Of a stretch of DNA of 64,000 nucleotides, positions 4,882 through 64,000 are shown piece after piece (position 1 is the stretch's first letter; every line of letters begins with the position of its first letter). A model generated the notes under the pieces. The model saw only the letters and a list, made by a program, of their open reading frames with translations, had not been told where the DNA came from and made no database searches. Origin of the DNA: Parabacteroides sp. PF5-9 (lineage in GTDB: Bacteria; Bacteroidota; Bacteroidia; Bacteroidales; Tannerellaceae); contig NZ_JARXWG010000007.1 in NCBI RefSeq assembly GCF_029893105.1, positions 62,001 to 126,000 on the forward strand. The letters run 5' to 3'. A program made the translations under genes and the position numbers.

Positions 4882-4895
4882 ATTTTTTATTTATT

Positions 4896-4977: not shown

Positions 4978-5014
4978 CCTATGTTTATCCTCTTGATTGA
5001 ACAGTTACTACATA

Positions 5015-5023: not shown

Positions 5024-5024
5024 C

Positions 5025-5084: not shown

Positions 5085-5115
5085 TTTTCTTGATCTGATG
5101 TCATGTTCGACGGTG

Positions 5116-5146
5116 CAAATGTAGAATAATAATCCTTTTCAGCAAA
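5116..5146 (-). promoter_or_regulatory. ilv operon promoter
   Basis: On the minus strand a TTTG -33 element (5143-5146) is followed after 19 bp by TACATTTG (5116-5123), an exact match to the Bacteroidetes -7 consensus TAnnTTTG. Transcription should start near 5109, about 25 nt before the leader-peptide ATG. Confidence 0.8.
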
Positions 5147-5317
5147 GGATTTAAAAGATTTTTCTTGATTTTTCTTTCAATTAGCAAGGAAACAAGACTT
5201 TCTTTCTACAATTTGGCAAATAGAAAACAGAATATCCATCCGCTCCAAATTCATTGGTTGGTTTTCGAAAAGACTACATATTCGGACTTAGCTATACTTT
5301 CTGAAAAAGACCTCTTT

Positions 5318-6236: not shown

Positions 6237-8693
6237 TCAGAGTTTATGGACAACCTTCCTTGTGACAATCCGATTTTGGTTGTCAACAATACGCACAAAC
6301 ATCGCTCCTTTATATTGCAGAGGTATCGATACTGTCGGCTGATCTGTTCTCTTTTCAACACTCAAACGCCCGACTGCATCATAAACATAAATCGAAGAAG
6401 GTGCAGTCATTCCCGACACCACAAGCCGATGATTGTCTATCATAACCTGAATAGCAAAATCCTCTACCGGTTGAATACCATCTATCTCCTGATCGGCAAC
6501 GATCACCAGATCCGTACAATTTTCAGGAATAAGGTATTCCACCTCCCTGGTTGCAAACTCCCTGGTAAACGTCTGTCCTCCGACCGTCGCCGTAATACGC
6601 CAGCCTATCGTTTCCGGCTCTTCACCTTCCCATTTGATTTTAAGAGTTTCGCCGGTAAAATATTGCCCATTGAATGACGAATAAAATAATGGAACATCAT
6701 TGATCGACACTATTCCTGAAGCCTTCAGCGCCTTAGGGATAGTTAATTTGACCGGAGTCAATCCTTTCAATCCGAAATGTTCCCGCAAATGTTCGTACAT
6801 ATAACTATTCCGGTCGAGGCACCACTTTTTCATCCGAGCCACCTCACTCTCCCAATAGTCCATATCTCTGAGTGGCCATCGTTGACGATGATAAGTCATT
6901 TCAGGGGCGATCAACTGTTGAATACTATCTATAACATGTGAAGTCGCATCATAATGGAGTATATCTCCCATATAAACCGCAAAAGCAGAGTAGAATTTTT
7001 TCTTAAACACATCTTGCGACAGAAGAGAGGTAAACAATATCTTAAAATATTTCATTTGTGTTGTATCCGTATTATATGCCAACGCATTATAATCAGGCGC
7101 TTGAGCATACCCCAGACCAAGATCCGTATCTTTTACGATAAACCGCCATTTCCCCTCATCAGTCTTTGGTCGCCATAAAACGACATTACCATGTGGGAAA
7201 TCAGTATTGGCCACATAGATCTGCAAAATCATATAATTAATAAATTCATCCAAATCAACCATATCCATGATCTCGTCATAAGGAACCTGATCGGAAGGAA
7301 GCAATAATTTGGCGACCATATCATTTAGAGCCAGCCGGTCTCCAGCCTTTACCTCCGAAATGGCACCCGCCCAATTTTCAATCATATCAATATTCTCAAG
7401 TCCATCGTAATTGGCTATCACAAAATCATCATTCGAACGCTCACGTAAGTTCTGAATACCAAAATACTGTCCGTTGATAAAAAGAATAGCCGGCTGATAG
7501 GCCTGATAATCCAAATCTACTTTTTCACCCATAAACAACTGGATAGCCGCATCCCGGAAATGTGTATTATAAAAATCATTCCCGGAATTACGAATCATAA
7601 ACGATTTGATTTCCTGATCGGGTTTATCTTTAAAGAGTGGATAATCGTATCTTTTTTGCCCAAAACGTTTGTTGGCATAAAGTATTAAACTCTTTTGCGG
7701 ATACATCCGGGAATAACCACCAGATGTTCGCATCTCTTCTAACTGATTCAGCACACTGCCTTCGTCCTCCGAGGTAAAATATTCAAAATGTACCGGCCGC
7801 CGCCAGTCCTGACTATAATTCGGATTTTCCTTATCTTTTCCTTCCGTATAAATTCCGAGGTCGTCATCCCACAAAAACGTAGGATCCAAACTCAATGAAA
7901 TAATTGGCAAGGTCAATTCCCTGTCAGTAATAATATACGATTGAACAGCCGAACGGTTTATCAGGTAACCGGGTGCAATAATCTTTGCACGTATGGATGT
8001 CGGTTCTGTAAGAGTTATTGAACCGGTATAAGGAATAGACTCCACCGTTGGTTCCGAGCCATCAGTTGTATAACGAATATCAGCTTCTGTAATTCCATCC
8101 GGAATATCTTCCGGCAATAATAAGCTAACACTTACTTCCTGTTTATAAACCCCACCTCTTAAACTAAATACCGGAGAAGGCAACAATACGTCAGCAATCG
8201 CACCTTTATTTTTGTGACCTGCTGTAGGAGTGACAAAATAAGCCCATTCCTCTATTCCGTCTTCTATTCTGCCTCGCGCAATATTGGGTGCCGGCTGTTT
8301 GGGGATATCAACCACCTCATCTTCAAGCTCCCCTTTTGCATTATACAGATAGATGACTCCATTCTTTCCACTCTCCAAACGAAAAGAAGTGTGCAACCCT
8401 GCCTCTACCTTGTCACAATAGATCATCAAATACCCTTGGGCAGGAATAATTGTAGACTCTTTGATCTCCCATCCGCTAGGGAAAATCGCTTGATCCGAAA
8501 TATTCCACCCTTTAATATCAACAGGTTGGCTGCTATCATTATACAACTCTACCCAACTATCCGGAAACTCATTCAGGTCATCCACAAGATAGTCTATATT
8601 ACTCTGCATAAACTCGTTAATCCACACTTTAGCCGAAGAAAAAGGCATTGAAAAACAGATGGATAAAAACAAAAAGAACAATTGTCGCTTCAT
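6237..8693 (-). CDS. CotH-family surface protein with lamin-tail domain
   Basis: This is an 818-residue exported protein. A signal peptide (residues 1-21) precedes a lamin-tail-like domain (VWINEFMQSNIDYL..., about 22-150), a chitobiase/hexosaminidase C-terminal-type fold (IRYTTDGSEPTVES, about 170-255) and a CotH domain (about 265-650). The CotH domain contains the FMIRNSGND and WRFIVKDTDLGLG segments, the latter with the metal-binding aspartates of the CotH kinase fold. The last 85 residues (IYVYDAVGRLSVEK...VTRKVVHKL) resemble a type IX secretion sorting domain. CotH proteins include protein kinases of spore coats; the substrate here is unknown. The protein is likely displayed on the cell surface. 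Confidence 0.85.
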   Translation of the reverse strand: MKRQLFFLFLSICFSMPFSSAKVWINEFMQSNIDYLVDDLNEFPDSWVELYNDSSQPVDIKGWNISDQAIFPSGWEIKESTIIPAQGYLMIYCDKVEAGLHTSFRLESGKNGVIYLYNAKGELEDEVVDIPKQPAPNIARGRIEDGIEEWAYFVTPTAGHKNKGAIADVLLPSPVFSLRGGVYKQEVSVSLLLPEDIPDGITEADIRYTTDGSEPTVESIPYTGSITLTEPTSIRAKIIAPGYLINRSAVQSYIITDRELTLPIISLSLDPTFLWDDDLGIYTEGKDKENPNYSQDWRRPVHFEYFTSEDEGSVLNQLEEMRTSGGYSRMYPQKSLILYANKRFGQKRYDYPLFKDKPDQEIKSFMIRNSGNDFYNTHFRDAAIQLFMGEKVDLDYQAYQPAILFINGQYFGIQNLRERSNDDFVIANYDGLENIDMIENWAGAISEVKAGDRLALNDMVAKLLLPSDQVPYDEIMDMVDLDEFINYMILQIYVANTDFPHGNVVLWRPKTDEGKWRFIVKDTDLGLGYAQAPDYNALAYNTDTTQMKYFKILFTSLLSQDVFKKKFYSAFAVYMGDILHYDATSHVIDSIQQLIAPEMTYHRQRWPLRDMDYWESEVARMKKWCLDRNSYMYEHLREHFGLKGLTPVKLTIPKALKASGIVSINDVPLFYSSFNGQYFTGETLKIKWEGEEPETIGWRITATVGGQTFTREFATREVEYLIPENCTDLVIVADQEIDGIQPVEDFAIQVMIDNHRLVVSGMTAPSSIYVYDAVGRLSVEKRTDQPTVSIPLQYKGAMFVRIVDNQNRIVTRKVVHKL

Positions 8694-10269: not shown

Positions 10270-11892
<1,623 letters not shown>

Positions 11893-13731
11893 ATGAAACA
11901 ACGAATACTGTTCATATTAGCTGTATTCGTCGCATGGTTACCGGTATTTGTCATTCAGAAACCGGTATTCATGCTTTATCACCTTTCGCAGACCGCAGAC
12001 GTTTCTTTGACAGAATGGATACTGGTGATCTGGAACGGATTAAAACTGGATTGTACGATTTCGGGTTACCTTACTGTCATTCCGCTATTAGCGACACTTG
12101 TTTCTATATGGCTCAACGGCTCTTGGCTACAGAAATTCATGAAAGGTTATTTCCTGGTTATGGCCATACTGGTAGCTATTATTTTTGCCGTCGATGTCGC
12201 GTTGTATGGTTTCTGGGGATTTCGCTTGGACGCAACAGTGCTTTTCTATCTACAGTCGCCTAAAGATGCGATGGCCAGTGTACCTGTCGGCACTTTTTTC
12301 TTGCAAATAGCTGTTTGTGCGATTTATGCATTTGCCATCTATTCGTTTTTTAAACGACTGATCATCCCATTGGTTCCAGTGACAAAAGCGCATCAACGCT
12401 TACTGGGAAGTCTGGCTGTTATTCTTCTGGGAGGCTTATTATTTCTACCTATCCGTGGTGGTGTTACCACCTCTACGGCCAATGTCGGAATGGTCTATTT
12501 CAGCAAGAATCAGTTTTTGAATCATGCGGCTATCAATCCGACTTTCAGTCTGATAGCTTCACTTTCCAAACAGCAAGATTTTGCGGCACAATTTGATTTT
12601 TTTCCGGAAGAGAAACGCGAAGAACTCTTTAATCAATTAGTTGCTTCCGGCAATTCTTCTCCGGATGAAAGTTCTACATTATTAAATACGACACGTCCAA
12701 ATATCCTGATCATCTTACTGGAAAGCTTTTCGGCAAATGCCATCGAAGTGTTAGGCGGAGAAGCAGGAGTGACACCCAACCTGAACAGGCTTAGCCAAGA
12801 AGGTATCTTATTTACCAACCTATATGCGAACTCTTTTCGTACCGACAGAGGGATCGTTTCGGTCTTAAACGGTTATCTGGCTCAACCCACAACTTCAATC
12901 ATGAAATATCCGGCAAAAAGCCAGACATTGCCGTCGATCGCCCGTACATTGGCGGATAATGGGTATGTCAATAATATGTTATACGGTGGTGATATAAATT
13001 TCACCAATATGCAGAGTTATTTTTTCAGTTCGGGATATAGTCATATTACGGCCGACAGGGATTTCCCCCTCTCTACCCGGTTAAATAAATGGGGAGCAAA
13101 TGATAATGTCACCTTTTCATGGCTGTATGATTCGATGGTTGAAAAACAAAATTCCCCTACTCCATGGATGACTACCTTCCTCACACTGAGCAGTCACGAA
13201 CCGTTTGAAGTACCGTTTCATCACCTGGAACATCCCTACCTCAACTCTGTTGCTTTTACCGATAGTTGCATAGGCAGTTTTATCGATCGATTAAAGACAG
13301 AGCCCATATGGAAAGATTTGTTGGTCGTAATGGTTTCCGACCATGGATTCAGATATCCTGATCATATGCCGGAATATGATCCGCGACGCTATCATATTCC
13401 TATGATATGGTTGGGCGGTGCTGTAAAAGAGCCTCAAATAATCGATACATATGGGGTACAAACCGACCTGTCGGCCACTTTATTGAATCAGCTAAACCTT
13501 CCTTGTAACGAATTCACGTTCAGTAAAGATTTACAGAATCCGGCAGATCCACATTATGTGTTCTATACATTCAACAACGGTTTTGGATTTATAGATGAAA
13601 CAGGTCTCTCCGTTTTCGACAATGAAGGAGAAAAAACAGTACTAGAACAACCCACAACAGGAAGCACGCAACGTATTGAAAAAGGAAAAGCGTTATTGCA
13701 AACCCTTTATGATGATATGGGAGGAAGATAA
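11893..13731 (+). CDS. LTA-synthase-like phosphoglycerol transferase (alkaline phosphatase superfamily)
   Basis: This 612-residue membrane protein has about five N-terminal transmembrane helices (residues about 5-195) and a periplasmic sulfatase-fold domain. The nucleophile threonine is in NSFRTDRGIVSVLNGY, and metal ligands appear in ILLESFS and VSDHGFRYPDH. Relatives transfer phosphoglycerol or phosphoethanolamine groups to envelope glycans or lipids; the acceptor in Bacteroidetes is not known. Its ATG follows the ABC-F stop codon without a gap, which suggests translational coupling. Confidence 0.85.
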   Translation: MKQRILFILAVFVAWLPVFVIQKPVFMLYHLSQTADVSLTEWILVIWNGLKLDCTISGYLTVIPLLATLVSIWLNGSWLQKFMKGYFLVMAILVAIIFAVDVALYGFWGFRLDATVLFYLQSPKDAMASVPVGTFFLQIAVCAIYAFAIYSFFKRLIIPLVPVTKAHQRLLGSLAVILLGGLLFLPIRGGVTTSTANVGMVYFSKNQFLNHAAINPTFSLIASLSKQQDFAAQFDFFPEEKREELFNQLVASGNSSPDESSTLLNTTRPNILIILLESFSANAIEVLGGEAGVTPNLNRLSQEGILFTNLYANSFRTDRGIVSVLNGYLAQPTTSIMKYPAKSQTLPSIARTLADNGYVNNMLYGGDINFTNMQSYFFSSGYSHITADRDFPLSTRLNKWGANDNVTFSWLYDSMVEKQNSPTPWMTTFLTLSSHEPFEVPFHHLEHPYLNSVAFTDSCIGSFIDRLKTEPIWKDLLVVMVSDHGFRYPDHMPEYDPRRYHIPMIWLGGAVKEPQIIDTYGVQTDLSATLLNQLNLPCNEFTFSKDLQNPADPHYVFYTFNNGFGFIDETGLSVFDNEGEKTVLEQPTTGSTQRIEKGKALLQTLYDDMGGR

Positions 13732-29572: not shown

Positions 29573-32500
29573 ATGAAATTCACCGAATCCAAACTCGAAC
29601 ATGCATTTGCCGAACTTCTTTCACAAGAAGGTTATCCACATTGCTTGGGCAATACGCTTACCCGTCAGCCCGATGAGGTGCTGATAGAAGACGATTTGTA
29701 TAATTTCCTTAAGAGACGTTATGCCAATCACGGCATTACCGATACGGAAATCAAATCTATTCTGCTGGAATTGAAATCGCTTCCCGTTTCTGATTTGTAC
29801 GAGAGCAACAAGCGTTTTATGAAAATGTTGTCCGATGGATTTATTCTCAAACGTGAAGATCATACTCAAAAAGATATTTATATCCAGTTGATTGATTATT
29901 CGGGATTGGAGGAACAAACTTATACTGCCGAAGAACTAATTTCCGTTGTCGCTGAACCACAAGCCGAATATAAATCTGATGCAAATATCTATCGCTTTGT
30001 AACTCAACTCGAAATTCAAGGTTCGGAAAAACGTATTCCTGATGGTATATTATATATTAACGGATTGCCTTTGGTGGTTTTTGAGTTTAAGAGTGCCATT
30101 CGAGAAGATGCCACTATTCACGATGCTTACACGCAGCTGACCGTCCGTTACGAACGCGATATCCCCGAGCTGTTTAAATACAATGCTTTTTGTGTAATCA
30201 GCGACGGTATAAATAACAAAGCGGGTTCGTTTTTCGCCCCTTACGATTTTTTCTATGCATGGCGACGCATTGCCGGTATGAATAAAGATGTGGATGGCGT
30301 TGATTCTATGTACACCCTGGTTCAAGGTATGTTCCAGAAAAACAGATTGCGGGATATACTGCGAAACTTTGTTTACATTCCCGATTCGTCGAAAAAGAAT
30401 GAGAAAATTGTTTGTCGTTATCCGCAGTATTACGCGGCTCGGGCACTGTATGATAACATAAAACAGGCTCAAAAGCCGTTTGGAAATGGAAAAGGCGGCA
30501 CCTATTTTGGAGCCACCGGTTGCGGGAAAAGTTTCACGATGCTTTTTTTGACTCGCCTATTGATGAAAAGCGAACATTTCGGTAGTCCTACCATTGTATT
30601 GATTACCGACCGCACCGATTTGGACGACCAATTAGCCGGACAATTTACCAATGCCAAACAATATATTGGCGACAATAATGTGATTAGCGTGGATAGTCGT
30701 GAACATCTGCGAGAGTTATTGAAAGGACGTGAAAGCGGCGGTGTTTTTCTGACCACTATTCATAAGTTTACAGAAGATACCAAATTATTGACCGACCGTC
30801 AAAATGTAATTTGCATTTCAGACGAAGCGCATCGCAGTCAAACCAATCTCGACCAAAAAATAAAAGTAAGCGAGAAAGGCGTATCCAAAACCTTCGGATT
30901 TGCCAAATACCTGCACGATTCGTTGCCAAACGCAGTATATGTCGGTTTTACAGGTACACCCATAGATGCGACTCTCGATGTGTTTGGTAAAGTGGTGGAT
31001 GCCTATACTATGACCGAATCGGTTCGTGACGAAATTACTGTTCGCATTGTGTATGAAGGACGTGCGGCCAAAGTAGTTTTGAATAACAGCGAACTACAAA
31101 AAATAGAACAGTATTATAACAATGTTGCCGAAGATGGAGCAAACGAATATCAGATTGAGAAAAGCAAACAAGAGTCTGCCCGATTACATGTTATTCTTGG
31201 CGATCCCGACCGCTTGCAGGCATTAGCCGAAGACTTTGTAACACACTACGAAAATCGTATTTCTGAAGGTTCTTCGGTAAAAGGTAAAGCCATGTTTGTG
31301 TGCAGCAATCGTACTATCGCCTACGATTTTTATAAAAAGGTACTGGCGCTTCGTCCTGAATGGGGAGAAGTCCGATTCGCGGAAGAGGGTGTTGAACTTA
31401 CCGATAAAGACAAACGTGAGTTGAAACCGATGGAACGTATCAAACTTGTGATGACTCGCAATAAAGACGACGACAAAAAGTTATATGATTTATTGGGAAC
31501 AAAGGAGTATCGTAAAGAACTCGACCGACAATTCAAGAATGAAAGGTCAAACTTCAAAATTGCCATTGTGGTCGATATGTGGCTCACAGGTTTCGACGTG
31601 CCGTTTCTCGATACCATTTATATTGATAAGCCGATACAGCAACACAATCTGATACAAACGATTTCGCGCGTAAATCGTAAGTTTGAAGGTAAAAACAAAG
31701 GTTTGGTTGTTGATTATATCGGAATCAAGAAACAAATGAACCTTGCTTTGGCTCACTATAACAAAGGCGACAAAGATAATTTTGAGGATATCGCCCAGTC
31801 ACTTGTAGCAGTAAAAGACCATTTGGACCTGTTGGCAAAACTGTTTTACAAATTCGATAGCTCAGCTTATTTCTCAGGTGGTACATTGGAACAATTGAAC
31901 TGTTTGAACAAAGCCGCTGAATATGTACAGTGCACCAAAGAGTTTGAAACTCGTTTTATGGACTTGGTAAAACGCCTGAAAGCAGCGTATGATATTTGCA
32001 CCGGCAGCGAACAACTGACACAAGAAGAACGAGATTATACACACTTTTATTTGGCTGTTCGTTCTATCGTTTTCAAGTTAACCAAAGGCGACGCTCCCGA
32101 TACGGCACAGATGAATGCCAAAGTGCAGGAAATGATCAAAGACGCTTTAATTAGCGATGGCGTAGAAGAACTCTTCAAAATAGGTTCGGAAGATGAAACA
32201 GAGCAAGATATTTTTGATGAAGATTATTTGGCGAAGATTGATAAAATAAAGCTGCCCAACACGAAAATAAAGTTGCTCCAAAAGCTGTTAGCGAAAGTAA
32301 TTGGCGAACTGAAAAAGGTAAACCGTATGAAAGGGATCGACTTCAGCAAAAAAATGGAGAGCTTGGTGGAACGATACAATCAACGAGATGCCAACGATAT
32401 TCTCAGAAGCGAAGTCTATGAAGAAATGGCAGAACAGCTAACCAACCTAATTTGGGAAGTACATAAAGAGTTCTCAGCTGGCGAAGAGATGGGTATTGAC

Positions 32501-32779
32501 TTTGAAGAAAAGGCTTTTTACGACATACTCAAATCGCTTTGCATAAAATATGACTTCACTTACCCTGACGACAAGATGATTGAATTGGCTAAAAACGTAA
32601 AAATATTGGTTGATACGCAAGCCAAATATCCTGACTGGGACAAGCGAGACGATATTAAATCCGCGTTAAAAGTCGGTCTTATCCTATTGCTTGACGAACA
32701 CGGCTATCCTCCGGTAGAGCGCGATGAAGTATATACCGAAATTTTTGAACAAGCGGAAAATTTCAAGAAAAATAAGTAA
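29573..32779 (+). CDS. hsdR: Type I restriction endonuclease/translocase subunit
   Basis: This 1068-residue protein has an N-terminal nuclease domain with LPLVVFEFKSA (about residue 167). SF2 helicase motors follow, with Walker A FGATGCGKSFTM (about 312) and DEAHRSQ (about 416), and motif VGFTGTPID and the helicase C domain (MFVCSNRTIAYDF...TISRVNRKFEGKNKGLVVDYIG). The C-terminus is helical, for binding to HsdM. It cleaves unmethylated DNA after ATP-driven translocation. It appears complete and functional. Confidence 0.95.
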   Translation: MKFTESKLEHAFAELLSQEGYPHCLGNTLTRQPDEVLIEDDLYNFLKRRYANHGITDTEIKSILLELKSLPVSDLYESNKRFMKMLSDGFILKREDHTQKDIYIQLIDYSGLEEQTYTAEELISVVAEPQAEYKSDANIYRFVTQLEIQGSEKRIPDGILYINGLPLVVFEFKSAIREDATIHDAYTQLTVRYERDIPELFKYNAFCVISDGINNKAGSFFAPYDFFYAWRRIAGMNKDVDGVDSMYTLVQGMFQKNRLRDILRNFVYIPDSSKKNEKIVCRYPQYYAARALYDNIKQAQKPFGNGKGGTYFGATGCGKSFTMLFLTRLLMKSEHFGSPTIVLITDRTDLDDQLAGQFTNAKQYIGDNNVISVDSREHLRELLKGRESGGVFLTTIHKFTEDTKLLTDRQNVICISDEAHRSQTNLDQKIKVSEKGVSKTFGFAKYLHDSLPNAVYVGFTGTPIDATLDVFGKVVDAYTMTESVRDEITVRIVYEGRAAKVVLNNSELQKIEQYYNNVAEDGANEYQIEKSKQESARLHVILGDPDRLQALAEDFVTHYENRISEGSSVKGKAMFVCSNRTIAYDFYKKVLALRPEWGEVRFAEEGVELTDKDKRELKPMERIKLVMTRNKDDDKKLYDLLGTKEYRKELDRQFKNERSNFKIAIVVDMWLTGFDVPFLDTIYIDKPIQQHNLIQTISRVNRKFEGKNKGLVVDYIGIKKQMNLALAHYNKGDKDNFEDIAQSLVAVKDHLDLLAKLFYKFDSSAYFSGGTLEQLNCLNKAAEYVQCTKEFETRFMDLVKRLKAAYDICTGSEQLTQEERDYTHFYLAVRSIVFKLTKGDAPDTAQMNAKVQEMIKDALISDGVEELFKIGSEDETEQDIFDEDYLAKIDKIKLPNTKIKLLQKLLAKVIGELKKVNRMKGIDFSKKMESLVERYNQRDANDILRSEVYEEMAEQLTNLIWEVHKEFSAGEEMGIDFEEKAFYDILKSLCIKYDFTYPDDKMIELAKNVKILVDTQAKYPDWDKRDDIKSALKVGLILLLDEHGYPPVERDEVYTEIFEQAENFKKNK

Positions 32780-32793
32780 TAAAAAGTTAACAT

Positions 32794-34269
32794 ATGATCA
32801 CCCAACAAGAAATCCTCCAACTCCTCCACGATACCGAAAGCTATCGAGTAGAGCGAACGACATCTAAAACAAATACGGATAAATTCTGTCAAGCAATATG
32901 TGCGTTTGCCAATGACATTTCAGGCAATGGAAAGAATGGTTACCTGATGATTGGCGCACATGACAATGGTGAGTTGAGTGGTTTGAAAGTAGATGATGAA
33001 CTTTTGTTGACTATTTCCAATATCCGCACAGATGGGAACGTCCTTCCCCAACCGGTAATGACTGTTGAAAAATTCAGTTTTGAAAAGGGCGATTTGCTTG
33101 TTGCAGAGGTGCAGCCATCTGAATTTCCTCCGGTTCGATACCGTGGGCGTATTTGGGTGCGGGTTGGTCCGCGAAAGAGTTTTGCGACAGAAGCAGAGGA
33201 GAAAATTTTAATGGAGAGGCGTCTATCCAATATTCATACATTTGACGAGATGCCTTGTATGGGAACAACGATGAATGACCTTGATATTGATGTGATAAAA
33301 AGGGAGTTCTTGCCTCAGGCAGTAGCGGAAGATATATTGGTAGAAGATAAACGTCCTGTTGAGGAACAACTTGCCTCATTAGGATATTATGATTTGCGGT
33401 ATAATTGTCCAACCAACGGTGCGATTGTTCTTTTCGGTAAGAATCCGGAGCGTTATCTGCACGGTTCGTATGTGCAATATGTGCGTTTTAAAGGTAAAGA
33501 CCGGGCGGGAGATATTATCAACGAGCAAGTTTTTAATGGAAATCTTTGTAAGGAGTTAGCAAGAATAGATACTTTCATTGAAACAAGTATTGCGCAAAAA
33601 AGACCGATTCCGGTCAGTGTATTACGAGAAGAAACGGTTTCTAAATATCCCTACTGGGCAACACGCGAACTTTTGATGAATGCCATCATGCATCGTGACT
33701 ATCAGACGAATGCTCCGGTGCTGTTCTACGAATACGATGATCGTATTGAGGTACAAAATCCGGGTGGGCTGTATGGTAAAGTGAGCGAGGAAAATTTCCC
33801 GAATGTAAGCGACTATCGTAACCCATTCATAGCAAAAGCCATGAAGATATTGGGATATGTCAATCGTTTCAGTCGTGGTATCTATCGGGTACAAAAAGAA
33901 CTGGTTGAGAATGGAAACGGCGAAGCGATATTTGATTTTGACCTGATAACCGCATTCCGAGCAACCGAGAATGTTTCACAACGGTATTTTGAGGAAGGTT
34001 TTGGGGCTGACACCCAAGAAAATGGGCAAGAAACACCCAAGAAACACCCAAGAAACATCCAAGAAACATCCAAGAAACATCCAAGAAACATCCAAGAAAA
34101 TATATTAGAAGCGATTAAAGATAATCCATTTATCACTCGAAAGGAACTGGAAACTAAATTGGGATATTCTTTAGGGACAATAAAATATCATCTGTCGCAA
34201 TTAGTTAAAAATGGAGTTGTAAAACATGAAGGTTCAACTAAAGCAGGCAAATGGGTTGTAATAGAATGA
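32794..34269 (+). CDS. AlbA_2/HATPase regulator with internal 11-bp repeat
   Basis: This is a 491-residue protein. An N-terminal AlbA_2 (Schlafen AlbA) domain reads TTSKTNTDKFCQAICAFAND, then GYLMIGAHDNGELSGL (about 20-140). A HATPase_c_4-type domain has WATRELLMNAIMHRDYQTNAPV and NPGGLYG (about 285-330). The C-terminal winged helix is TRKELETKLGYSLGTIKYHLSQLVKNG (about 445-490). Such proteins are often annotated as RecG-like or transcriptional regulators and are frequent in defence islands. It lies 14 bp after hsdR and is the last gene of the operon. Codons about 412-434 are made of an 11-bp tandem repeat that could change frame. Confidence 0.8.
   Translation: MITQQEILQLLHDTESYRVERTTSKTNTDKFCQAICAFANDISGNGKNGYLMIGAHDNGELSGLKVDDELLLTISNIRTDGNVLPQPVMTVEKFSFEKGDLLVAEVQPSEFPPVRYRGRIWVRVGPRKSFATEAEEKILMERRLSNIHTFDEMPCMGTTMNDLDIDVIKREFLPQAVAEDILVEDKRPVEEQLASLGYYDLRYNCPTNGAIVLFGKNPERYLHGSYVQYVRFKGKDRAGDIINEQVFNGNLCKELARIDTFIETSIAQKRPIPVSVLREETVSKYPYWATRELLMNAIMHRDYQTNAPVLFYEYDDRIEVQNPGGLYGKVSEENFPNVSDYRNPFIAKAMKILGYVNRFSRGIYRVQKELVENGNGEAIFDFDLITAFRATENVSQRYFEEGFGADTQENGQETPKKHPRNIQETSKKHPRNIQENILEAIKDNPFITRKELETKLGYSLGTIKYHLSQLVKNGVVKHEGSTKAGKWVVIE
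34027..34099 (+). repeat. 11-bp tandem repeat inside coding region
   Basis: The unit CAAGAAACAYC is repeated six times (34027-34092: two CAAGAAACACC, then four CAAGAAACATC), plus 7 bp of a seventh. It encodes an 11-residue periodic linker just before the winged helix. As 11 is not a multiple of 3, gain or loss of one unit shifts the frame. Confidence 0.93.
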
Positions 34270-34333
34270 AATTTCGTATGTTTGTATTGGAAATAGCCTA
34301 AAAGCAAATATGTGCAGAACGCTGCAAGTTTTT

Positions 34334-34354
34334 GGTGACTTTTTAGAGATTATT
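34334..34354 (+). repeat. Island 1 right-end direct repeat
   Basis: This is the second copy of the repeat at 19147-19167 (GGTGACTTTTTNGAGANTATT), about 50 bp left of att2. Confidence 0.5.
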
Positions 34355-34404
34355 CCTCTTTTTGAAAAATATATCAATCAGATTGATAGCCACTTAATTG
34401 AATC

Positions 34405-34426
34405 GTTCGATTCCTGGTGGCACCAC
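34405..34426 (+). other. att2: junction attachment site
   Basis: This is an exact 22-bp copy of the tRNA-Phe 3' end (identical to 19011-19032). It is the boundary between the two tandem islands. Confidence 0.88.
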
Positions 34427-34449
34427 TTTTAAAAGACTTTAAATTTGGT

Positions 34450-34481
34450 AAATCCCTGAAAATAAAACATTTCAGGGATTT
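34450..34481 (+). terminator. Terminator after att2
   Basis: The stem AAATCCCTGAAA (34450-34461) pairs with TTTCAGGGATTT (34470-34481) and is followed by TCTTTTT. It is homologous in sequence and position to the terminators after att1 and att3. Confidence 0.8.
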
Positions 34482-34664
34482 TCTTTTTCCAAGAAATCCT
34501 CCATTTTTAGCAAAACTAAGCAGTTCCTTCGGGCTAAATCGTGGTCATTTTTTAAGCCACGAAAAATTGACCACGAATGACATCGTAAGTCGCTGATTGT
34601 CTTATCGTTTAAGGCTCTCTATTAAGCATGGTTCAAGTATCTTTAAACCATTAATTTTTAGAGT

Positions 34665-35879
34665 ATGAAACAGACATTTAATGTGCTTTTCTTTGTGAGA
34701 AGAACAAAGTTGAAAAAGACAGGTGATACGCCAATCATGCTACGCATCACTATTGAAGGGCAATTAGTTGAAATGCAACTTAAACGTGATGTAAAACCCA
34801 ATCTTTGGAATCAGGCGAAAGAACGCTGTACAGGCAAGGATTCCGCATCTTTAGAGATTAACCGTTATCTTGAATCAGTAAAACTCCGTTTGTTTGAAAT
34901 CCACCGCAAGATGGAAGAAGAAGGCAAACTTATTAATCCAATGGACATTAAACGGAAGTTTCTCGGGCTGGACGAAGAGCACAAAATGTTCTTTCAAGTA
35001 TTTCAGGAGCATAACGACAAGTGCAGGGAGTTGATTGGTAAAGATTATGCCAAAGTAACTATCTCCCGCTTTGATACTTGTTTGAAGTATTTTCGGGAAA
35101 TGAGACAAGTCCAATATCAGCGGAAAGATATTCCATTAAAGGAAGTCACCAACGGTATGATTCATGATTACATCCACTTCCTGAAGGCCGAAAAGGGATT
35201 GCAAGAAAATACGGTTATCCGCTATATGAAGGTAGTAAAGAAAGTATTAAACATTGCGGTAAACTACGATTGGATACCGAAAAATCCGTTTGGCAATATC
35301 CGTTTCCACGAAAAAGAGGTACATAAAGAATTTCTGACCAAAGAGGAACTGGAAACGCTGCGAACAAAAGAATTTGATATTCCACGATTAGAACTGGTGC
35401 GGGATGTATTTTTAGTGCAGTGTTGGACTGGACTCGCCTTCATAGATGTATCCGAATTAAAAGAAGAACATATCATTGCTGATAATGACGGAAACCTATG
35501 GATACGAAAGGAAAGGCATAAAACCGGAATCATGTGTAACGTGCCATTGCTTGATGTTCCATTGGAGATCATTGAGAAGTATAAAGACCATCCACTTTGC
35601 CAGAAGAGAGGCATTTTACTTCCTGTATTGAGCAATCAAAAAATGAATAGTTATCTGAAAGAAATTGCCGATTGCTGTGGAATTAAGAAGAAGCTCTCCA
35701 CGCACACCGGACGCCATACCTTCTGTTCGGTAGTAACTTTGGCGAACAATGTATCGTTGGAAAACATAGCAAAAATGGTTGGGCATACGAATACCCGAAT
35801 GACACAACGTTACGCAAAAGTGTTAGACCAAAGTATTCTCCGGGATATGCAAGGAGTAAAAGAAAGTTTTGCGAAGTAG
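34665..35879 (+). CDS. Tyrosine recombinase/integrase of island 2
   Basis: This 404-residue protein is closely related to the integrase at 19272, with the same start pattern (NVLFFVRRTKLKKTGDTPIMLRI), core-binding domain and catalytic motifs STHTGRHTFCSV and GHTNTRMTQRYAKVLDQSI. The Arg I position again lacks Arg (CWTGLAFIDV). It lies 238 bp from att2, the same spacing as in island 1. It should act on the same tRNA-Phe target, which explains the tandem arrangement. A terminator follows at 35896. Confidence 0.92.
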   Translation: MKQTFNVLFFVRRTKLKKTGDTPIMLRITIEGQLVEMQLKRDVKPNLWNQAKERCTGKDSASLEINRYLESVKLRLFEIHRKMEEEGKLINPMDIKRKFLGLDEEHKMFFQVFQEHNDKCRELIGKDYAKVTISRFDTCLKYFREMRQVQYQRKDIPLKEVTNGMIHDYIHFLKAEKGLQENTVIRYMKVVKKVLNIAVNYDWIPKNPFGNIRFHEKEVHKEFLTKEELETLRTKEFDIPRLELVRDVFLVQCWTGLAFIDVSELKEEHIIADNDGNLWIRKERHKTGIMCNVPLLDVPLEIIEKYKDHPLCQKRGILLPVLSNQKMNSYLKEIADCCGIKKKLSTHTGRHTFCSVVTLANNVSLENIAKMVGHTNTRMTQRYAKVLDQSILRDMQGVKESFAK

Positions 35880-41752: not shown

Positions 41753-42346
41753 ATGGCACATGTTTTATCCAAGGAAATTAAACACCGCATAATGCAAAAC
41801 GGAGAGGGAAGACTTTATGTGATAAGTGATTTTGCTGATTTGAATAATGATGCGTTGGTTACTAGGGTCCTATCCCGACTTGAAAATGAAAAATTTCTGA
41901 TACGTCTCTCGCAAGGCATCTATTTGTATCCAAGCCGTAATCGTTATGGGATACATAAGCCATCTATTGACACAATTGCAAAAACGATTGCCGAAAAAGA
42001 CAAGGCACGTATTATCCCATCAGGGTTAACTGCGTTGAACGCCTTAGGTCTATCAACTCAAGTTCCAATGAATGCTGTATATTTAACAAATGGCACTCCA
42101 AGGTCAATTACAGTGGGTAATCGCAAAATCATTTTTAAGAAAAGCGTTCCCAGAAATTTTGCTTATCAAAGCGAGTTATTTTCTTTAGCTGTATCAGCAA
42201 TGAAAGAAATCGGCGAAAATAATATTGATGACAATACAATACTAACAATAAAAGAAATACTTGCTAAGGAGCCAAATCAGGAAATGATTAGGCAGGATTT
42301 CCTTATAGCACCACAGTGGATTCGCAAGAAATTAAATATAATCTGA
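41753..42346 (+). CDS. AbiEi-type antitoxin (DUF6088-like)
   Basis: This is a 197-residue protein. The N-terminal winged helix reads DLNNDALVTRVLSRLENEKFLIRLSQGIYLYP, then SGLTALNALGLSTQVPMNAVYLTNG, the pattern of AbiEi/DUF6088 antitoxins of type IV systems. Such antitoxins repress their own promoter and counteract the nucleotidyltransferase toxin without direct binding. It ends 2 bp before the toxin ATG. Two palindromic operators lie upstream. Confidence 0.85.
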   Translation: MAHVLSKEIKHRIMQNGEGRLYVISDFADLNNDALVTRVLSRLENEKFLIRLSQGIYLYPSRNRYGIHKPSIDTIAKTIAEKDKARIIPSGLTALNALGLSTQVPMNAVYLTNGTPRSITVGNRKIIFKKSVPRNFAYQSELFSLAVSAMKEIGENNIDDNTILTIKEILAKEPNQEMIRQDFLIAPQWIRKKLNII

Positions 42347-42348
42347 TT

Positions 42349-43392
42349 ATGGGAACGACGTTAAAACGGAACTGGATATATCTACCTTTAGAAGAAAAGC
42401 AAACCATCCTTGCAAATGTAGCAGAAGAAAAAGGTATTGATGATAATGCCGTAGAAAAAGATTTTTGGGTAAGTATGGTGTTGAAAGCCATTTTTGGATT
42501 GCCATGCTGTAAAGGAGTGGTTTTTAAGGGTGGAACGAGTCTTAGCAAAGGCTGGGATTTAATAGAGCGATTCTCGGAAGATTGCGATCTTGCCATAGAT
42601 AGAGCTGCTCTCGGATTTGGAGAGAACCTAAGTAAGAAGGAACGTACTGAATTAAGAAAAGAATCAAAACGATTCGTAGACAACACACTTGTTCCAGAAA
42701 TAGAAAAAGCATTGGACGCATTGGGGTTATCAGGACATTTTAAGTTGGTAAACCCTGAAACAACAGTATCGGATAAAGACCCTGTTGAGTTTTTCATCGA
42801 ATATACCTCTATATTGCCTAATAAGAATCCATACATAGCCGAAAGAATTAAGGTTGAAATGAGTTGCCGTTCTCTAATCGAACCATTTGAACCTATTGAA
42901 ATGCGATCTATGATTGAAGAAGCATACCCGGATGAGCCTTTTAGTGAATCACCGTTTGTTGTGCCAACAGTTTTTCCGGGAAAGACGTTTTTAGAGAAGG
43001 TTTTTCTTCTCCATGAAGAATTTAATCGAATAGGAGGCGGTAGAAATATCGATAGACTCACTAGGCATCTTTATGACATAGAGAAGATGATGGATGAAGA
43101 ATTTGCCATAAAAGCGATGAATGATGAGTTCTTATACTCTCATATTGTTGAACATCGAAGCAAATTTACCGCATGGAGTGGATTTGATTACCAAAGCCAC
43201 CATCCTTCAACGATTTCTTTCTTGCCGCCGGAACCCTTGGTTGAGACACTTAAGGATGATTATAAAAAGATGCAAGAAGGGTTCATTTATGGAAAGAAGC
43301 TATCTTATGATGAACTAATTAAGCGCATTACTATTTTACAAGAACGGTTCAGAAAACTGTCATGCAAAACTTCGTTCTTTAATCCTAAGTGA
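42349..43392 (+). CDS. AbiEii-type nucleotidyltransferase toxin
   Basis: This is a 347-residue protein. The nucleotidyltransferase core is FKGGTSLSKGWDLIERFSEDCDLAI (about residues 59-83), with the GG-TS-K motif and the metal-binding D-x-D-like residues. A basic helical C-terminal part follows (FLEKVFLLHEEF, HLYDIEKMM). AbiEii toxins block growth during phage infection by modifying RNA acceptor ends. ATG 42349 is preferred; a TTG or other start at 42316 would overlap the antitoxin. It is complete. Confidence 0.87.
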   Translation: MGTTLKRNWIYLPLEEKQTILANVAEEKGIDDNAVEKDFWVSMVLKAIFGLPCCKGVVFKGGTSLSKGWDLIERFSEDCDLAIDRAALGFGENLSKKERTELRKESKRFVDNTLVPEIEKALDALGLSGHFKLVNPETTVSDKDPVEFFIEYTSILPNKNPYIAERIKVEMSCRSLIEPFEPIEMRSMIEEAYPDEPFSESPFVVPTVFPGKTFLEKVFLLHEEFNRIGGGRNIDRLTRHLYDIEKMMDEEFAIKAMNDEFLYSHIVEHRSKFTAWSGFDYQSHHPSTISFLPPEPLVETLKDDYKKMQEGFIYGKKLSYDELIKRITILQERFRKLSCKTSFFNPK

Positions 43393-58557: not shown

Positions 58558-59175
58558 TTATAAAACTATTTTCCCATCTTTCACCATATTAACAAGTTCT
58601 ATGGCATTTTTAGCACCGATTTTCTGAAGTCCGCTTTTCCGATAACCATTCACCGTTTCTGTTGTAATAAACAACTGTTCCCCGATATCACGGCTTCTAT
58701 ACCCTTCGACAACCAATTTTAAAACCTGTTTTTCACGAGGAGTCAGCCGAAACCTCTGATCCGCTACCCTCTTTTGCATCAAGATCTTCACCTCAGTAGA
58801 GAGAAAAATCTCTCCTTCCATGACTTTCTCCAAACCGATCAACACCTCCTCCGTCAATTCACTTTTTAAGATATAACCAGCAACACCAGCATTCAACACC
58901 GTTTTAATGATCGAATATTCATTATGAGTAGATAATATCAATATTTTCTGCTCCGGATATTTCTGTATGATTTCCTGACAAAAGTCAACCCCGCTACCAT
59001 CCGGCAAAATTAAGTCCAATAAAAGAATATCGGGACGTCTTATCGTTAATGTTTTCTTGCATTCCGTTAATGTATAAGAGACATCGCAAATCTCTGCTTT
59101 CCCAGAATTACGGATAGACAGACATAACCATTCCACCAACATTTTATGATCTTCCACAATATGTACACTTACCAT
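58558..59175 (-). CDS. LuxR/NarL-type response regulator
   Basis: This 205-residue regulator has a receiver domain with phospho-acceptor Asp in DILLLDLILPDGSG (about residue 56) and a LuxR HTH (RLTPREKQVLKLVVEGYRSRDI, then TTETVNGYRKSGLQKIGAKN). No histidine kinase is adjacent. It is divergent from the Hsp70 operon, and the shared intergenic region holds array C and two CCCC-N7-GGGTAT sites, so it could regulate both sides. The orphan kinase at 13851 is a conceivable but untested partner. Confidence 0.92.
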   Translation of the reverse strand: MVSVHIVEDHKMLVEWLCLSIRNSGKAEICDVSYTLTECKKTLTIRRPDILLLDLILPDGSGVDFCQEIIQKYPEQKILILSTHNEYSIIKTVLNAGVAGYILKSELTEEVLIGLEKVMEGEIFLSTEVKILMQKRVADQRFRLTPREKQVLKLVVEGYRSRDIGEQLFITTETVNGYRKSGLQKIGAKNAIELVNMVKDGKIVL

Positions 59176-59557: not shown

Positions 59558-61249
59558 ATGAAACAAATACATGAAAACCCATATCGGATAGCAGGACTTC
59601 TTGCCAACTCAACCGAAAGAGAACTCCAAAAACAAAAGGCGAAAATCACACGCTATATCAGTGTCGGTCGGGTGGTTGATTCGGAGTATGATTTTTCTTT
59701 TCTGCGGCAGATCGATCGTTCGGAAAGTGTGATCAACAAGGCCTTTTCGGGTATTGAGCAGAATCAGGATAGAGTAATGCATGCGCTTTTCTGGTTCCTG
59801 AAAGTCAATCCGTTTGACGAGACCGCTATCAATCATCTGATCAACGGACATAAAGAAAAAGCGATAGAGATCTGGGAGAAAGTGACCGCCGGTAAAGGGG
59901 TTTCGCCGAAAAACTTTTCGTGTATCAGTAATCTGGCTACATTGAAGTTATTGGGAGGATCTAAAACTGAAATTCAACAAGGACTCGAAGCCAAGATTAT
60001 GTTGATCGAGTCAGACTGTTTCCAAGCGTTTATACAGACTGTAGCCGATGAGACCTATTCGGAAAAAACGGAAAAACAGATCGAAAAATTTATCAGTGAG
60101 GTTTTACCTCATCTCAAAAAGAAATACTCCGATGCGGGAACGCTTCAACTGTTCAAAAATTGTAATGGTTCATGCAAGCAATTCCTGACCCAGAAGTTTT
60201 CAGACGAACCGATCCATAAAATAGAGGCGCAACTCGAAAAAGTCAAACAGGGAAGAAGAGAGAACAAAGCCGGATTATACAAATTGGGGAAAAAACTGAT
60301 CGCAGATTGTAAAAGCGATTTAAACACATTAAAATCGGTATTGGGGCAAGACAACCTGACCTACAAAGTGATTTCAGACAATCTGGCCAAAGAGATCCTG
60401 CAATGTGGTATTGATTATTTCAATGAGATGATCAAACAGAGTAATCCGGCCAAAGAAAGTTTGGAACTATTGGAATATGCTCTCTCGATCACCCAAAATA
60501 CCCAGACACGTCAACGGATAGAGGAGAACATAAAGGTGATGAAAAATAGTGAAGTCGAATCGGCTGTCGAAAGTGAGATTAATTTCATTACCCAACAATT
60601 AAATCAACTGCAAAACAGTTCATTCAGTATCTCTAAAGCAAAAAATTTCGTAAATGCCTGTAAGCCCAAACTAAATACCCTGAAATCGAGTTTAGGAGCC
60701 AACAATGAAGTGTATCTCACCATCAGTGGAGCCATTGCTAATAACGCTCAGGGAGCACTCATACAGGTGGTCAATGAAGCCCAGAATGACTTCACAAACC
60801 GCATGACATACGATCGGTTTGGTGCACTTAATACACTTAAAAGTATTATTGTTGAGGCTGTCGATGTATCTACCCTTATCGGAACATTGGATATGCCTAC
60901 CGACATACGGACAAGATATAAAGAGAATCACAATGCATTAATGCAACTGGCTGGACAACTGGCCTCCATACCCACCGGAGGAGGAGGTTATAGTTCTGCT
61001 GGTGGAAGCAGCGGCAAAAAAGGATGCTACATTGCCACCATGGCATACGGAAGTTATGAACATCCACAGGTTATCGAGTTAAGACGTTTCAGGGATGATT
61101 TTTTGAGTAAAAGTATTGCCGGACGTCTCTTTATCCGTACCTACTATAAATACTCACCGGCTTTGGTTGAGAAGTTAAAAGAGAAAGAACAAATAAACCG
61201 CATCATACGTACCCTGTTAAATTCATTTATAAAATTAATCCGATCATAA
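59558..61249 (+). CDS. CFI-box C-terminal protein of the Hsp70 operon
   Basis: This is a 563-residue protein. The N-terminus (ENPYRIAGLLANSTERELQKQ, then KITRYISVGR) resembles the short J-like start found in proteins paired with bacterial Hsp70s. The middle is long helical repeats (about 130-460), with two copies of a CKxxLNTLKSxLGxxNxxYxxIS motif near 247-272 and 368-392. A Gly/Ser-rich linker leads to a CFI-box-type C-terminus GCYIATMAYGSYEHPQVIELRRFRD (about 489-515). Its stop overlaps the next start by one base. A co-chaperone or client-binding role is inferred from the operon. Confidence 0.72.
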   Translation: MKQIHENPYRIAGLLANSTERELQKQKAKITRYISVGRVVDSEYDFSFLRQIDRSESVINKAFSGIEQNQDRVMHALFWFLKVNPFDETAINHLINGHKEKAIEIWEKVTAGKGVSPKNFSCISNLATLKLLGGSKTEIQQGLEAKIMLIESDCFQAFIQTVADETYSEKTEKQIEKFISEVLPHLKKKYSDAGTLQLFKNCNGSCKQFLTQKFSDEPIHKIEAQLEKVKQGRRENKAGLYKLGKKLIADCKSDLNTLKSVLGQDNLTYKVISDNLAKEILQCGIDYFNEMIKQSNPAKESLELLEYALSITQNTQTRQRIEENIKVMKNSEVESAVESEINFITQQLNQLQNSSFSISKAKNFVNACKPKLNTLKSSLGANNEVYLTISGAIANNAQGALIQVVNEAQNDFTNRMTYDRFGALNTLKSIIVEAVDVSTLIGTLDMPTDIRTRYKENHNALMQLAGQLASIPTGGGGYSSAGGSSGKKGCYIATMAYGSYEHPQVIELRRFRDDFLSKSIAGRLFIRTYYKYSPALVEKLKEKEQINRIIRTLLNSFIKLIRS

Positions 61250-62169
61250 TGAAGAAAGTTATACTTGCAGCATTTATTTGCAGTACCTCCATTTTGTTTG
61301 CTCAACAATCGACGGAAAATACACTTATCGAAAAAATCCCCGGTATTCAACAGCACATAGAGCAGCTGACTTCTGAAGTAAACAGTCAGAAAGTTTTAAT
61401 AGAGAAACAACGAAATACAATCAAAGAACTGCAACAAAACACGGGCAAGCTTGAAGAACAGATCAAGCAATTAAACCTGTTTGTTGAACAAAACAAGCAA
61501 CAGATCAGCGGTGTATCCAACAATCTGGAGAAACAGATTAAAGAGTCTGAAGAGAAAGCAACACAATCCATTTCTCAACTGGGAGGAGATCTTCAGAAAA
61601 ACCGACTCTACTGGATCATTGCCACACTGGCGATTCTTTTACTGGGGACACTCATGTATTTTTTCCTGAAAAAACACATCAAGTCATCACAAGATGATGT
61701 AGAGACACAAATCAGAAACACCAAAAAATCATTGGATGATGAGGGGTTGAGGTTAGACAACAAATTGATAGAGGTGTTGGAGTCGCAATTGAAAGTGCAA
61801 CAGGAAGAGTCGAAAGGAGGTACAACTTCCGGCACTAAAAACATCGACCACTCCTTAGCGCTCAAAGTCGCCGATGAAATAGCACGTATGCAGAAAAATA
61901 TTTCACGCATGGATGACGACACCAAAGGGTTGAAACCGTTGGAAAAAGGGATCGAACGTATCCAGGCCAACTTTGCGGCAAATGGCTATGAAATGGTCAA
62001 CTTATTGAATGTCGATTACGATGAACGAATGAATATTGATGTGATCAATTTCATTGAAAACGATTCGCTTCCTGAGGGTAAAAAGATGATCACCAAAATT
62101 ATCAAACCACAGGTGAATTACAATGGCATTTTAATTCAGAGAGCACAGGTAGAAGTATCACAAAATTAA
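61249..62169 (+). CDS. Membrane coiled-coil protein with GrpE-like C-terminus
   Basis: This is a 306-residue protein with signal peptide (1-19), a periplasmic coiled coil (about 25-115), one transmembrane helix (about 121-140) and a cytoplasmic part. The C-terminal end (KPLEKGIERIQANFAANGYEMVNLL...IIKPQVNYNGILIQRAQVEVS) resembles the C-terminal beta domain of GrpE, the nucleotide exchange factor of Hsp70. It may therefore tether an Hsp70 to the inner membrane and drive its cycle. The similarity is by eye. The start overlaps the previous stop (TAATG). Confidence 0.7.
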   Translation: MKKVILAAFICSTSILFAQQSTENTLIEKIPGIQQHIEQLTSEVNSQKVLIEKQRNTIKELQQNTGKLEEQIKQLNLFVEQNKQQISGVSNNLEKQIKESEEKATQSISQLGGDLQKNRLYWIIATLAILLLGTLMYFFLKKHIKSSQDDVETQIRNTKKSLDDEGLRLDNKLIEVLESQLKVQQEESKGGTTSGTKNIDHSLALKVADEIARMQKNISRMDDDTKGLKPLEKGIERIQANFAANGYEMVNLLNVDYDERMNIDVINFIENDSLPEGKKMITKIIKPQVNYNGILIQRAQVEVSQN

Positions 62170-62181
62170 ACATAGATCAAA

Positions 62182-64000
62182 ATGGCAAGGATAAAAATTG
62201 ACTACGGCATTGACCTGGGAACCACCAACTCGGCAATATCCAGAATGGAAAGAGGAGAAGTGAGAATCATTAAATCGCTTGACAAACAGAAAGACACAAC
62301 CCCTTCTTGTATCGCTTTTAATCCTAAAGGAACGATATTCGTCGGTGATAAAGCATACGACAGTTACAGATCGAACAGTTTGAAAAGCCTCTCCAACAAA
62401 ACGCCATTGAACGCCTATGTGGAGTTTAAAAGAACCATGGGAACCGATAAAAAATATCATAGTTCCTATTTGAATAAGGAGTTTAGTTCGGAAGAACTAT
62501 CGGCTGAAATATTGAAAAGATTAAAAGAGTATATACAGGATGAAACGATCAAAGCGGCCATCATTACTGTTCCTGCCGCTTTTAAAAACAATCAGATTGA
62601 CGCAACACGCCGAGCCGGCAAATTAGCCGGATTTGATCATATAGAAGTATTGCAGGAACCTGTGGCGGCTTCGATGGCTTACGGATTGGACAGCAGTAAA
62701 AAAGAGGGATTCTGGCTGGTGTTCGATTTCGGAGGAGGTACATTCGATGCTGCATTATTAAAAGTGGAAGACGGGATCATGAAGGTCATCGATACCGAAG
62801 GTGATAATTATCTGGGAGGCAAAAATCTGGATTATGCCGTCGTAGATCAATTGATTATTCCACACATCCAGCAAAAATTCAGTATTGACGGGATGTTGTC
62901 TGATGACCATAAAAAAGCGGAATTCAGAAGCGCCCTAAAATTCTTTGCCGAAGAGATAAAAAACAACCTTTCTTTCAATGCATCACATAATATTTATGTC
63001 GATCCGGGAGATTGCGGGGAAGATGATAACGGGGAAGAAATTGAAATCGATCTGACGGTGGTTCAGGATGATCTTAAACGGATATTCACACCTATCTTCC
63101 AGAAAGCGATTGACTGTAGTTTAGCGCTTTTAAATAGAAATAATTTGAAAGGGAGTTCCCTGGATTCGCTGATTCTGGTCGGTGGGCCAACCCTCTCTCC
63201 GGTGCTTCGTGAAATGCTCGACAAACAACTCTGCAAACCCGATACGAGCGTCGACCCAATGACTGTTGTATCGAGAGGAGCAGCTCTGTATGCCTCAACG
63301 ATCGATATCTCGGAGAGTATCAAAGAAGAATCACGCGACCGGACAAAGATCCAATTGGAAATCGGACATGAAGCATCCAGTGTGGAACCGGAAGAGTTTG
63401 TGACACTCAAAATATTGGCCGACAAAACAGAAGGCACAATTCCTGATAAGGTCTTTGCCGAAATAAGCCGAGGCGATGGCGCCTGGTCGAGCGGAAAAGT
63501 AGAGATCAATACATTAGGTGAAGTGGTTGACGTTCAACTTGCCGAAAACAAAATGAATGTTTTTGAAGTGACGCTCTATGATGATAAAGGGAATGTTTTG
63601 GAATGCGAGCCTGCCTCGTTCAGTATTATTCAGGGATCAAAGATCGGAAGTGCTACCCTACCCTATAATATAGGTATTGAGATATTACAAAAAGTGACCA
63701 GTAAAGTGGTGTTTGTCACAGTTAAAGGATTGGAAAAAAACCAGTCTCTCCCGGCTACAGGGACAATCAACGGATTAAAAACCCAAAAGCAAATACGCCC
63801 GGGAATGGATACCGACTTTATTAAAATTCCTATTTATCAAGGCGAGCATAACTCTGAAGGGACACGAGCAATTTATAACGAACACGTATATGATATCATT
63901 ATCAGTGGGGCTGACCTTCCGGCATTATTGCCGGAAAGTGCAGATGTGGATCTGACTTTCAGCTTAGATAAGTCACAAAAAATGACCGTTCAGGCGTATT
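62182..64000 (+). CDS. Hsp70-family chaperone (3' end outside window)
   Basis: 606 codons are visible and the gene runs off the window. The ATPase domain has phosphate-1 YGIDLGTTNSAIS (about residues 8-20), phosphate-2 VFDFGGGTFDAALLKV (about 183-198), the adenosine loop LILVGGPTLSP (about 331-341), and connect and hinge motifs. The C-terminal half differs from DnaK: the canonical substrate-binding domain is replaced by less conserved beta-rich sequence, so it is a specialised Hsp70 and not the housekeeping DnaK. It lies 12 bp after the GrpE-like gene. Confidence 0.88.
   Translation, partial: MARIKIDYGIDLGTTNSAISRMERGEVRIIKSLDKQKDTTPSCIAFNPKGTIFVGDKAYDSYRSNSLKSLSNKTPLNAYVEFKRTMGTDKKYHSSYLNKEFSSEELSAEILKRLKEYIQDETIKAAIITVPAAFKNNQIDATRRAGKLAGFDHIEVLQEPVAASMAYGLDSSKKEGFWLVFDFGGGTFDAALLKVEDGIMKVIDTEGDNYLGGKNLDYAVVDQLIIPHIQQKFSIDGMLSDDHKKAEFRSALKFFAEEIKNNLSFNASHNIYVDPGDCGEDDNGEEIEIDLTVVQDDLKRIFTPIFQKAIDCSLALLNRNNLKGSSLDSLILVGGPTLSPVLREMLDKQLCKPDTSVDPMTVVSRGAALYASTIDISESIKEESRDRTKIQLEIGHEASSVEPEEFVTLKILADKTEGTIPDKVFAEISRGDGAWSSGKVEINTLGEVVDVQLAENKMNVFEVTLYDDKGNVLECEPASFSIIQGSKIGSATLPYNIGIEILQKVTSKVVFVTVKGLEKNQSLPATGTINGLKTQKQIRPGMDTDFIKIPIYQGEHNSEGTRAIYNEHVYDIIISGADLPALLPESADVDLTFSLDKSQKMTVQAY

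Follow-up and report, generated by a model that had tools for sequence, protein, structure and literature searches.

The window analysed here, a 64,000-nt stretch of Parabacteroides sp. PF5-9 (contig NZ_JARXWG010000007.1, positions 62,001 to 126,000), ends within an accessory operon that we favour, with some reservation, as encoding a dedicated inner-membrane Hsp70-AAA+ remodelling machine whose selected role is conflict-related. The operon architecture is well supported, and its function is one that we infer. Five core genes follow one another: the open reading frames (ORFs) of a J-like protein with a J-like N-terminus, helical repeats and a C-terminal CFI box (gene 1; 59558-61249, +; 563 aa) and of a transmembrane GrpE-like protein for which an AlphaFold2 model is also available (gene 2; 61249-62169, +; 306 aa), an Hsp70 gene (gene 3; 62182-64000 in the window, +) that ends at window-equivalent 64722 for a full product of 846 aa and, outside the window, genes for a kinase-AAA+ fusion (gene 4; window-equivalent 64745-66532, 595 aa) and a TerB-like protein (gene 5; window-equivalent 66534-67070, 178 aa). 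Genes 1 and 2 share a 1-base overlap in the ORF map of the window, and gaps of 22 bases and 1 base in the contig sequence separate the Hsp70 from the kinase-AAA+ gene and the latter from the TerB-like gene, after which convergent cobalamin genes are found. The original prediction, drawn from the window alone, had described three tightly coupled genes and suggested reading on past position 64000: the three genes are indeed present on the + strand with tight spacing, but two further core genes had been missed, which came to light, together with the end of the Hsp70 gene, once the contig was followed. It had also set the operon apart from the housekeeping chaperones, and the host genome does carry a separate housekeeping DnaK (contig C15) and GrpE (contig C19), the latter being present in all 41 sampled Bacteroidota genomes. 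The operon is a second, dedicated chaperone set in its host; the prediction of a dedicated machine thus holds for a separate set with a GrpE fold, but had overlooked its mobile, accessory nature and its frequent defence-gene neighbours. A LuxR/NarL-type response regulator recognised by eye (58558-59175, -) lies divergently and directly upstream of the operon, as a possible regulator.

The GrpE-like protein begins with a hydrophobic segment that is probably a signal peptide (61249-61308, +), followed by a predicted coiled coil that is helical in the model and presumably periplasmic (61318-61611, +), a transmembrane (TM) helix (61612-61668, +; residues ca. 122-140, hydropathy 2.28) and a GrpE-like domain recognised with Foldseek and Pfam (61846-62166, +; residues 200-306). 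In agreement with the single-pass topology proposed initially, 47/47 GrpE-like sequences have a hydrophobic stretch at the N-terminus and a single internal TM helix. The cytoplasmic GrpE-like domain, also part of the original claim, is borne out by structure: an AlphaFold2 model built from 47 sequences (window copy and relatives; predicted local distance difference test, pLDDT, 84) was searched with Foldseek, and its 13 best PDB matches were all GrpE (E from 9.2e-6, probability up to 1.00). At the sequence level, Pfam GrpE (PF01025) stayed below threshold for the window protein (12.2 bits and E 0.15 for the whole protein, 15.4 bits for the domain; cut-off 25.8), and was the top Pfam family for the isolated domain in five of 16 relatives, with a best E of 6.5e-5. 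A profile-profile comparison with 30 Bacteroidota GrpE rows, at least three of which were wrong ORFs, gave a sensible aligned region with a weak probability (ca. 1%) and was set aside. GrpE dimerises via its long helices. In the model an unbroken helix spans residues 24-190, so that a single rod, made of the coiled coil and the stalk of the GrpE domain, would cross the membrane, and this rod may transmit a signal across it.

The first protein, modelled as all-helical (AlphaFold2, pLDDT 92), was aligned or scanned together with 44 relatives. A profile of its first 111 residues, made from 15 sequences, ranked J-domains first in a search against the PDB (20 of 22 matches at E<=1), with individually weak values (best E 0.032). 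These matches are in register and delineate a probable degenerate J-domain at 59558-59797 (+; residues ca. 1-80), in which the J-domain His-Pro-Asp (HPD) tripeptide aligns with x-V-G in the profile and with S-V-G in the window copy; HPD is absent from 45/45 members. The J-like assignment made at the outset is supported by the profile search only in a degenerate form, in which HPD is missing and Pfam DnaJ (PF00226) gives no match. Homology to J-domains is likely, yet short of proven, given how weak each single match is and that none was obtained with Pfam DnaJ. A fold search with the whole protein returned tetratricopeptide repeat or alpha-solenoid-type and designed helical proteins, none at E<=0.001 and none a J-domain. 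An internal repeat, LNTLKSxLG...Y..IS...A, was seen at residues 255-291 and 372-408, which suggests that the central part of the protein contains tandem helical repeats.

The partner Hsp70 has an ATPase domain with intact catalytic motifs (62206-63300, +; residues 9-373), to which the PF00012 match (E 3e-66, 224 bits, cut-off 20.6) is confined, stopping at residue 373. By pattern, the motifs GIDLGTTNS, EFKRTMG and DFGGGTFD are kept in ca. 50 of 57 sequences, the others being mostly truncated or divergent. The C-terminal half (63307-64000 in the window, +; from residue 376) shows, by eye, ca. 110 extra residues followed by a substrate-binding-beta-like region, and is conserved across nine relatives. 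In the canonical Hsp70 system, the aspartate of HPD contacts R167 of DnaK. Of 49 operon Hsp70s, 34 have Glu at the position equivalent to R167, nine have Gln and two have Arg. Since HPD is lost from the J-like protein and R167 is replaced in the Hsp70, these sequences suggest that the J-Hsp70 contact has been rebuilt.

The C-terminus of the J-like protein is occupied by a CFI box (61025-61228, +; residues 490-557) that scores 80.4 bits against the family CFI-box-CTERM NF041770 (cut-off 40) and has a positively charged, amphipathic helix at its end (hydrophobic moment 0.74, charge +4). Among 45 relatives, 14 have a CFI box and 25 have predicted TM helices instead, in some cases with further domains behind them; a TM call, and a weak one, was obtained for only one of the 14 CFI-box proteins. 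Six had neither by this test, including a split gene with the box in its second part, a protein with a hydrophobic tail barely below threshold and a truncated one. On the Hsp70 tree the two states require 12 changes, at least 10 of them being forced by well-supported branches, which is about the same as with shuffled labels. The exchange is best seen in the pair L058/L059 (from Empedobacter and Chryseobacterium), in which the other four genes are 95-98% identical while the J-like proteins (L058 6121-7881; L059 6159-7895) exceed 90% identity over the first ca. 350 columns and then drop to 20-45%, the last third being replaced so that L058 has a TM tail and L059 a CFI box. The same type of break occurs in L026/L027. 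Because the CFI box alternates with TM helices it is read as a membrane-anchoring module, and the simplest reading is that the two are interchangeable ways of holding the J-like protein at the membrane. This goes against the initial view of the box as the mark of a processed or modified C-terminus, cysteine modification being possible. The literature searched yielded no paper that names the CFI box.

In operons that are otherwise 93-99% identical (L058/L059, L026/L027), the exchange of the C-terminal third of the J-like protein could alternatively point to a polymorphic effector, in which the exchangeable C-terminus, for instance membrane-perturbing TM segments, is kept inactive by the chaperone and freed on infection. 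The many C-termini made of TM helices, some of which have additional domains behind them, would fit such a role; nevertheless, the CFI box and the TM helices resemble equivalent anchors, and no known toxin or pore domain was recognised in the two C-termini scanned, so that we regard this explanation as improbable.

Gene 4 fuses a Ser/Thr protein kinase domain (PF00069, 121 bits; motifs HND and DFG in the window copy) to an AAA domain (PF00004, 131.7 bits). By pattern, DFG is found in ca. two thirds of the members; most relatives carry HNE or another change in place of HRD, and the motif is gone from one subgroup. To judge from these motifs, many of the kinase domains may be pseudokinases. In the AAA domain, Walker A and Walker B were recognised by pattern in 49/52 and 48/52 sequences, respectively, and most domains keep an aromatic pore loop, a sequence feature compatible with protein threading. 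The TerB assignment of gene 5 relies on a PF05099 score below the cut-off (16.9 versus 24.4 bits) and on its homologue in plasmid pHALHY02, annotated as TerB family. Three types of accessory genes recur, namely those for DUF6804 membrane proteins (16 loci), a secreted SH3 protein (seven) and a lipoprotein (five), and their products indicate the envelope. The DUF6804 proteins are 95-110 aa long and are encoded after the TerB-like gene or between the Hsp70 and kinase genes (e.g. L059 12096-12383). Variant arrangements were also noted. In L070, a gene for a protein kinase-WD40 fusion (1978-5544) lies 22 bases upstream of an operon with two Hsp70 genes, with no kinase-AAA+ gene found on its contig, and a related gene occupies the same place in L071. 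In L043, the J-like and kinase-AAA+ genes (6260-7927 and 11367-13101) each consist of two ORFs that part at a domain border, through either gene fission or a frameshift.

The gene set recurs across dozens of species. One genome-wide scan yielded 58 loci; all five core genes were seen in 34 of them, and the J-like, GrpE-like and Hsp70 genes occur together in 47/47 loci whose operon is not truncated at a contig edge, as well as in the single plasmid copy found (pHALHY02), in accordance with the predicted co-occurrence of the three genes in other genomes. Searches driven by the GrpE-like protein, in which the Hsp70 was not used, gave full-length or long matches in further genomes, all with J-like and Hsp70 neighbours except one at a contig end. 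Fragmentary coiled-coil matches in the phylum search (E ca. 1e-6 to 1e-9), with no J-like or Hsp70 partner at those loci, were judged to be due to chance. In four pairs the ratio of nonsynonymous to synonymous substitution rates (dN/dS) is 0.03-0.22 outside the exchanged J-like C-terminus. The split genes of L043 and the missing kinase-AAA+ gene in L051, L070 and L071 might suggest that the neighbourhood is decayed or fortuitous and that its genes do not act together, but strict co-occurrence with tight spacing and purifying selection refute this explanation, which is extremely improbable: recurrence in dozens of species and the low dN/dS indicate that the set is not fortuitous.

The operon is rare, being found in nine of 59 other members of the family and, as clear cases, in five of 394 other genomes of the phylum. 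Copies from Shewanella, Paraglaciecola, Nautiliaceae and Ignavibacteria nest within those of Bacteroidota, and near-identical copies occur across genera and families, indicating horizontal transfer; relaxase or mob genes adjoin L024, L058 and L059. Several loci lie among defence genes. In L031 (1438-18536), the five genes interrupt a bacteriophage exclusion (BREX) cluster, with brxC on one side and pglX on the other, and in pHALHY02, where the GrpE-like protein is labelled 'septum formation initiator', they are found between SIR2/WD40 genes and BrxL-PglZ-McrC-like genes. Restriction-modification genes are located upstream in L029 (HsdR) and downstream in L052 and L063 (type I) and L064 (type III), candidate defence genes occur near L026 and L053, and an N6-methylase is present in the flank of two loci versus ca. 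0.4 expected (a hand estimate with a rough background from host-genome counts).

These data bear on the closest rival explanation, namely that the same membrane-bound Hsp70-AAA+ machine was selected because, under stress, it refolds damaged proteins of the membrane or envelope or clears them away. Every part of the operon belongs to protein quality control, the accessory genes encode envelope proteins, and no nuclease or toxin was recognised among the core genes, all of which would suit such a function. Envelope proteostasis nevertheless sits poorly with the rare and patchy distribution, with horizontal movement combined with exchange of the J-like module, and with the BREX and restriction-modification neighbours; it appears rather unlikely, and the conflict-related role is favoured over it because of this rarity, mobility, module exchange and neighbourhood. 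Several observations weigh against the favoured role. No known defence gene adjoins the majority of the loci, and BREX or restriction-modification genes are nearby in five of ca. 46 loci versus ca. one roughly expected, in a post hoc and uncontrolled comparison. No copy was found in phage records or viral contigs, and carriage by phages is unsupported. In most relatives the kinase has Glu in place of the catalytic Asp, and a PDB search with a profile of Hsp70 residues 376-622 gave no match to a solved structure. The models of PADLOC-DB 2.0.0 (2023) left the J-like and TerB-like proteins unmatched and gave weak coiled-coil matches only for the GrpE-like protein and the Hsp70, strong matches of the kinase-AAA+ fusion being limited to generic kinase and AAA models.

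For the window copy itself, type I HsdR and AbiE-like genes are found only at a distance of 15-30 kb. By eye, a type I HsdR-like gene, an ATP-binding transcriptional regulator-like gene and a tyrosine integrase gene at 29573-35879 form a mobile defence segment ca. 25 kb before the operon, and an AbiEi/AbiEii-like toxin-antitoxin pair occupies 41753-43392.

In the conflict-related machine that we favour, we infer that the Hsp70 is physically recruited to the inner membrane, where the J-like protein and the GrpE-like rod would hold or concentrate it. The rod would couple periplasmic or envelope events to nucleotide exchange, and the Hsp70 would hand clients to the AAA+ ring for unfolding or extraction, much as DnaK does with ClpB. 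The kinase-like domain may tune the AAA+ motor and the TerB-like protein may also be regulatory, while a specialised J-Hsp70 contact, with no HPD and R167 replaced, would insulate the system from housekeeping DnaJ and DnaK. The selected role would be protection from phages or other envelope-disturbing agents. More tentatively, the operon could represent an undescribed class of mobile anti-phage systems, in which a transmembrane GrpE rod would report envelope disturbance to an inner-membrane Hsp70-AAA+ machine with a redesigned J-Hsp70 contact, exchangeable anchor or effector tails and a membrane-binding CFI box.

The operon has in common with DnaK-DnaJ-GrpE an Hsp70 ATPase domain, a probably J-derived domain and an exchange factor of GrpE fold. 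It differs from that system in its transmembrane, coiled-coil GrpE-like protein, in a J-like protein that lacks HPD, in an Hsp70 with no R167 equivalent in 47/49 sequences and a divergent C-terminal half, and in being mobile, accessory and apart from the housekeeping chaperones of its host. With the DnaK-ClpB disaggregase it shares an Hsp70 and an AAA+ ATPase with an aromatic pore loop, but this ATPase is not ClpB: it has one classic AAA domain, of the FtsH/CDC48 type, and is fused to a kinase. The parts are also linked in one operon and would be tethered to the membrane. The predicted GAP1-N2 conflict systems (Kaur et al. 2020, PMC7159879), which are centred on a GTPase and come mostly from Actinobacteria and Firmicutes, likewise encode HSP70 and GrpE together with a DnaJ-domain protein; the operon has no GTPase and adds the kinase-AAA+ fusion, the TerB-like protein and a membrane GrpE. 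Coiled-coil nuclease tandem (CoCoNuT) defence loci, co-located with BREX and type I restriction-modification, combine Hsp70-like nucleotide- and substrate-binding domain units, coiled coils and serine/threonine kinases (PMC11090510), whereas the operon has no McrB GTPase, McrC or HEPN nuclease and its Hsp70 motifs are intact. Phage sensing by bNACHT25 requires DnaJ (PMC12169576). Neither the composition of the operon nor a transmembrane GrpE was met in the accessible parts of the GAP1-N2, CoCoNuT and bNACHT25 descriptions, and the gene set is undescribed in the literature searched, subscription papers and preprints being outside that search. As regards NF041770, the J-like protein is above the family cut-off, and the alternation of the box with TM helices suggests an anchor role.

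Taken together, these comparisons suggest that this is a new form of Hsp70 machine, tethered to the membrane and mobile. If this is true, the Hsp70 cycle would include a membrane-spanning exchange factor, and an envelope signal could directly set chaperone activity. The paired loss of HPD and R167 would mark this J-Hsp70 pair as a naturally occurring candidate for orthogonality, and the unexplained CFI box would gain a testable role as a membrane anchor. Finally, a candidate chaperone-centred defence system would be added to those known, which fits recent evidence of chaperones in phage sensing, as described for bNACHT25 (PMC12169576).

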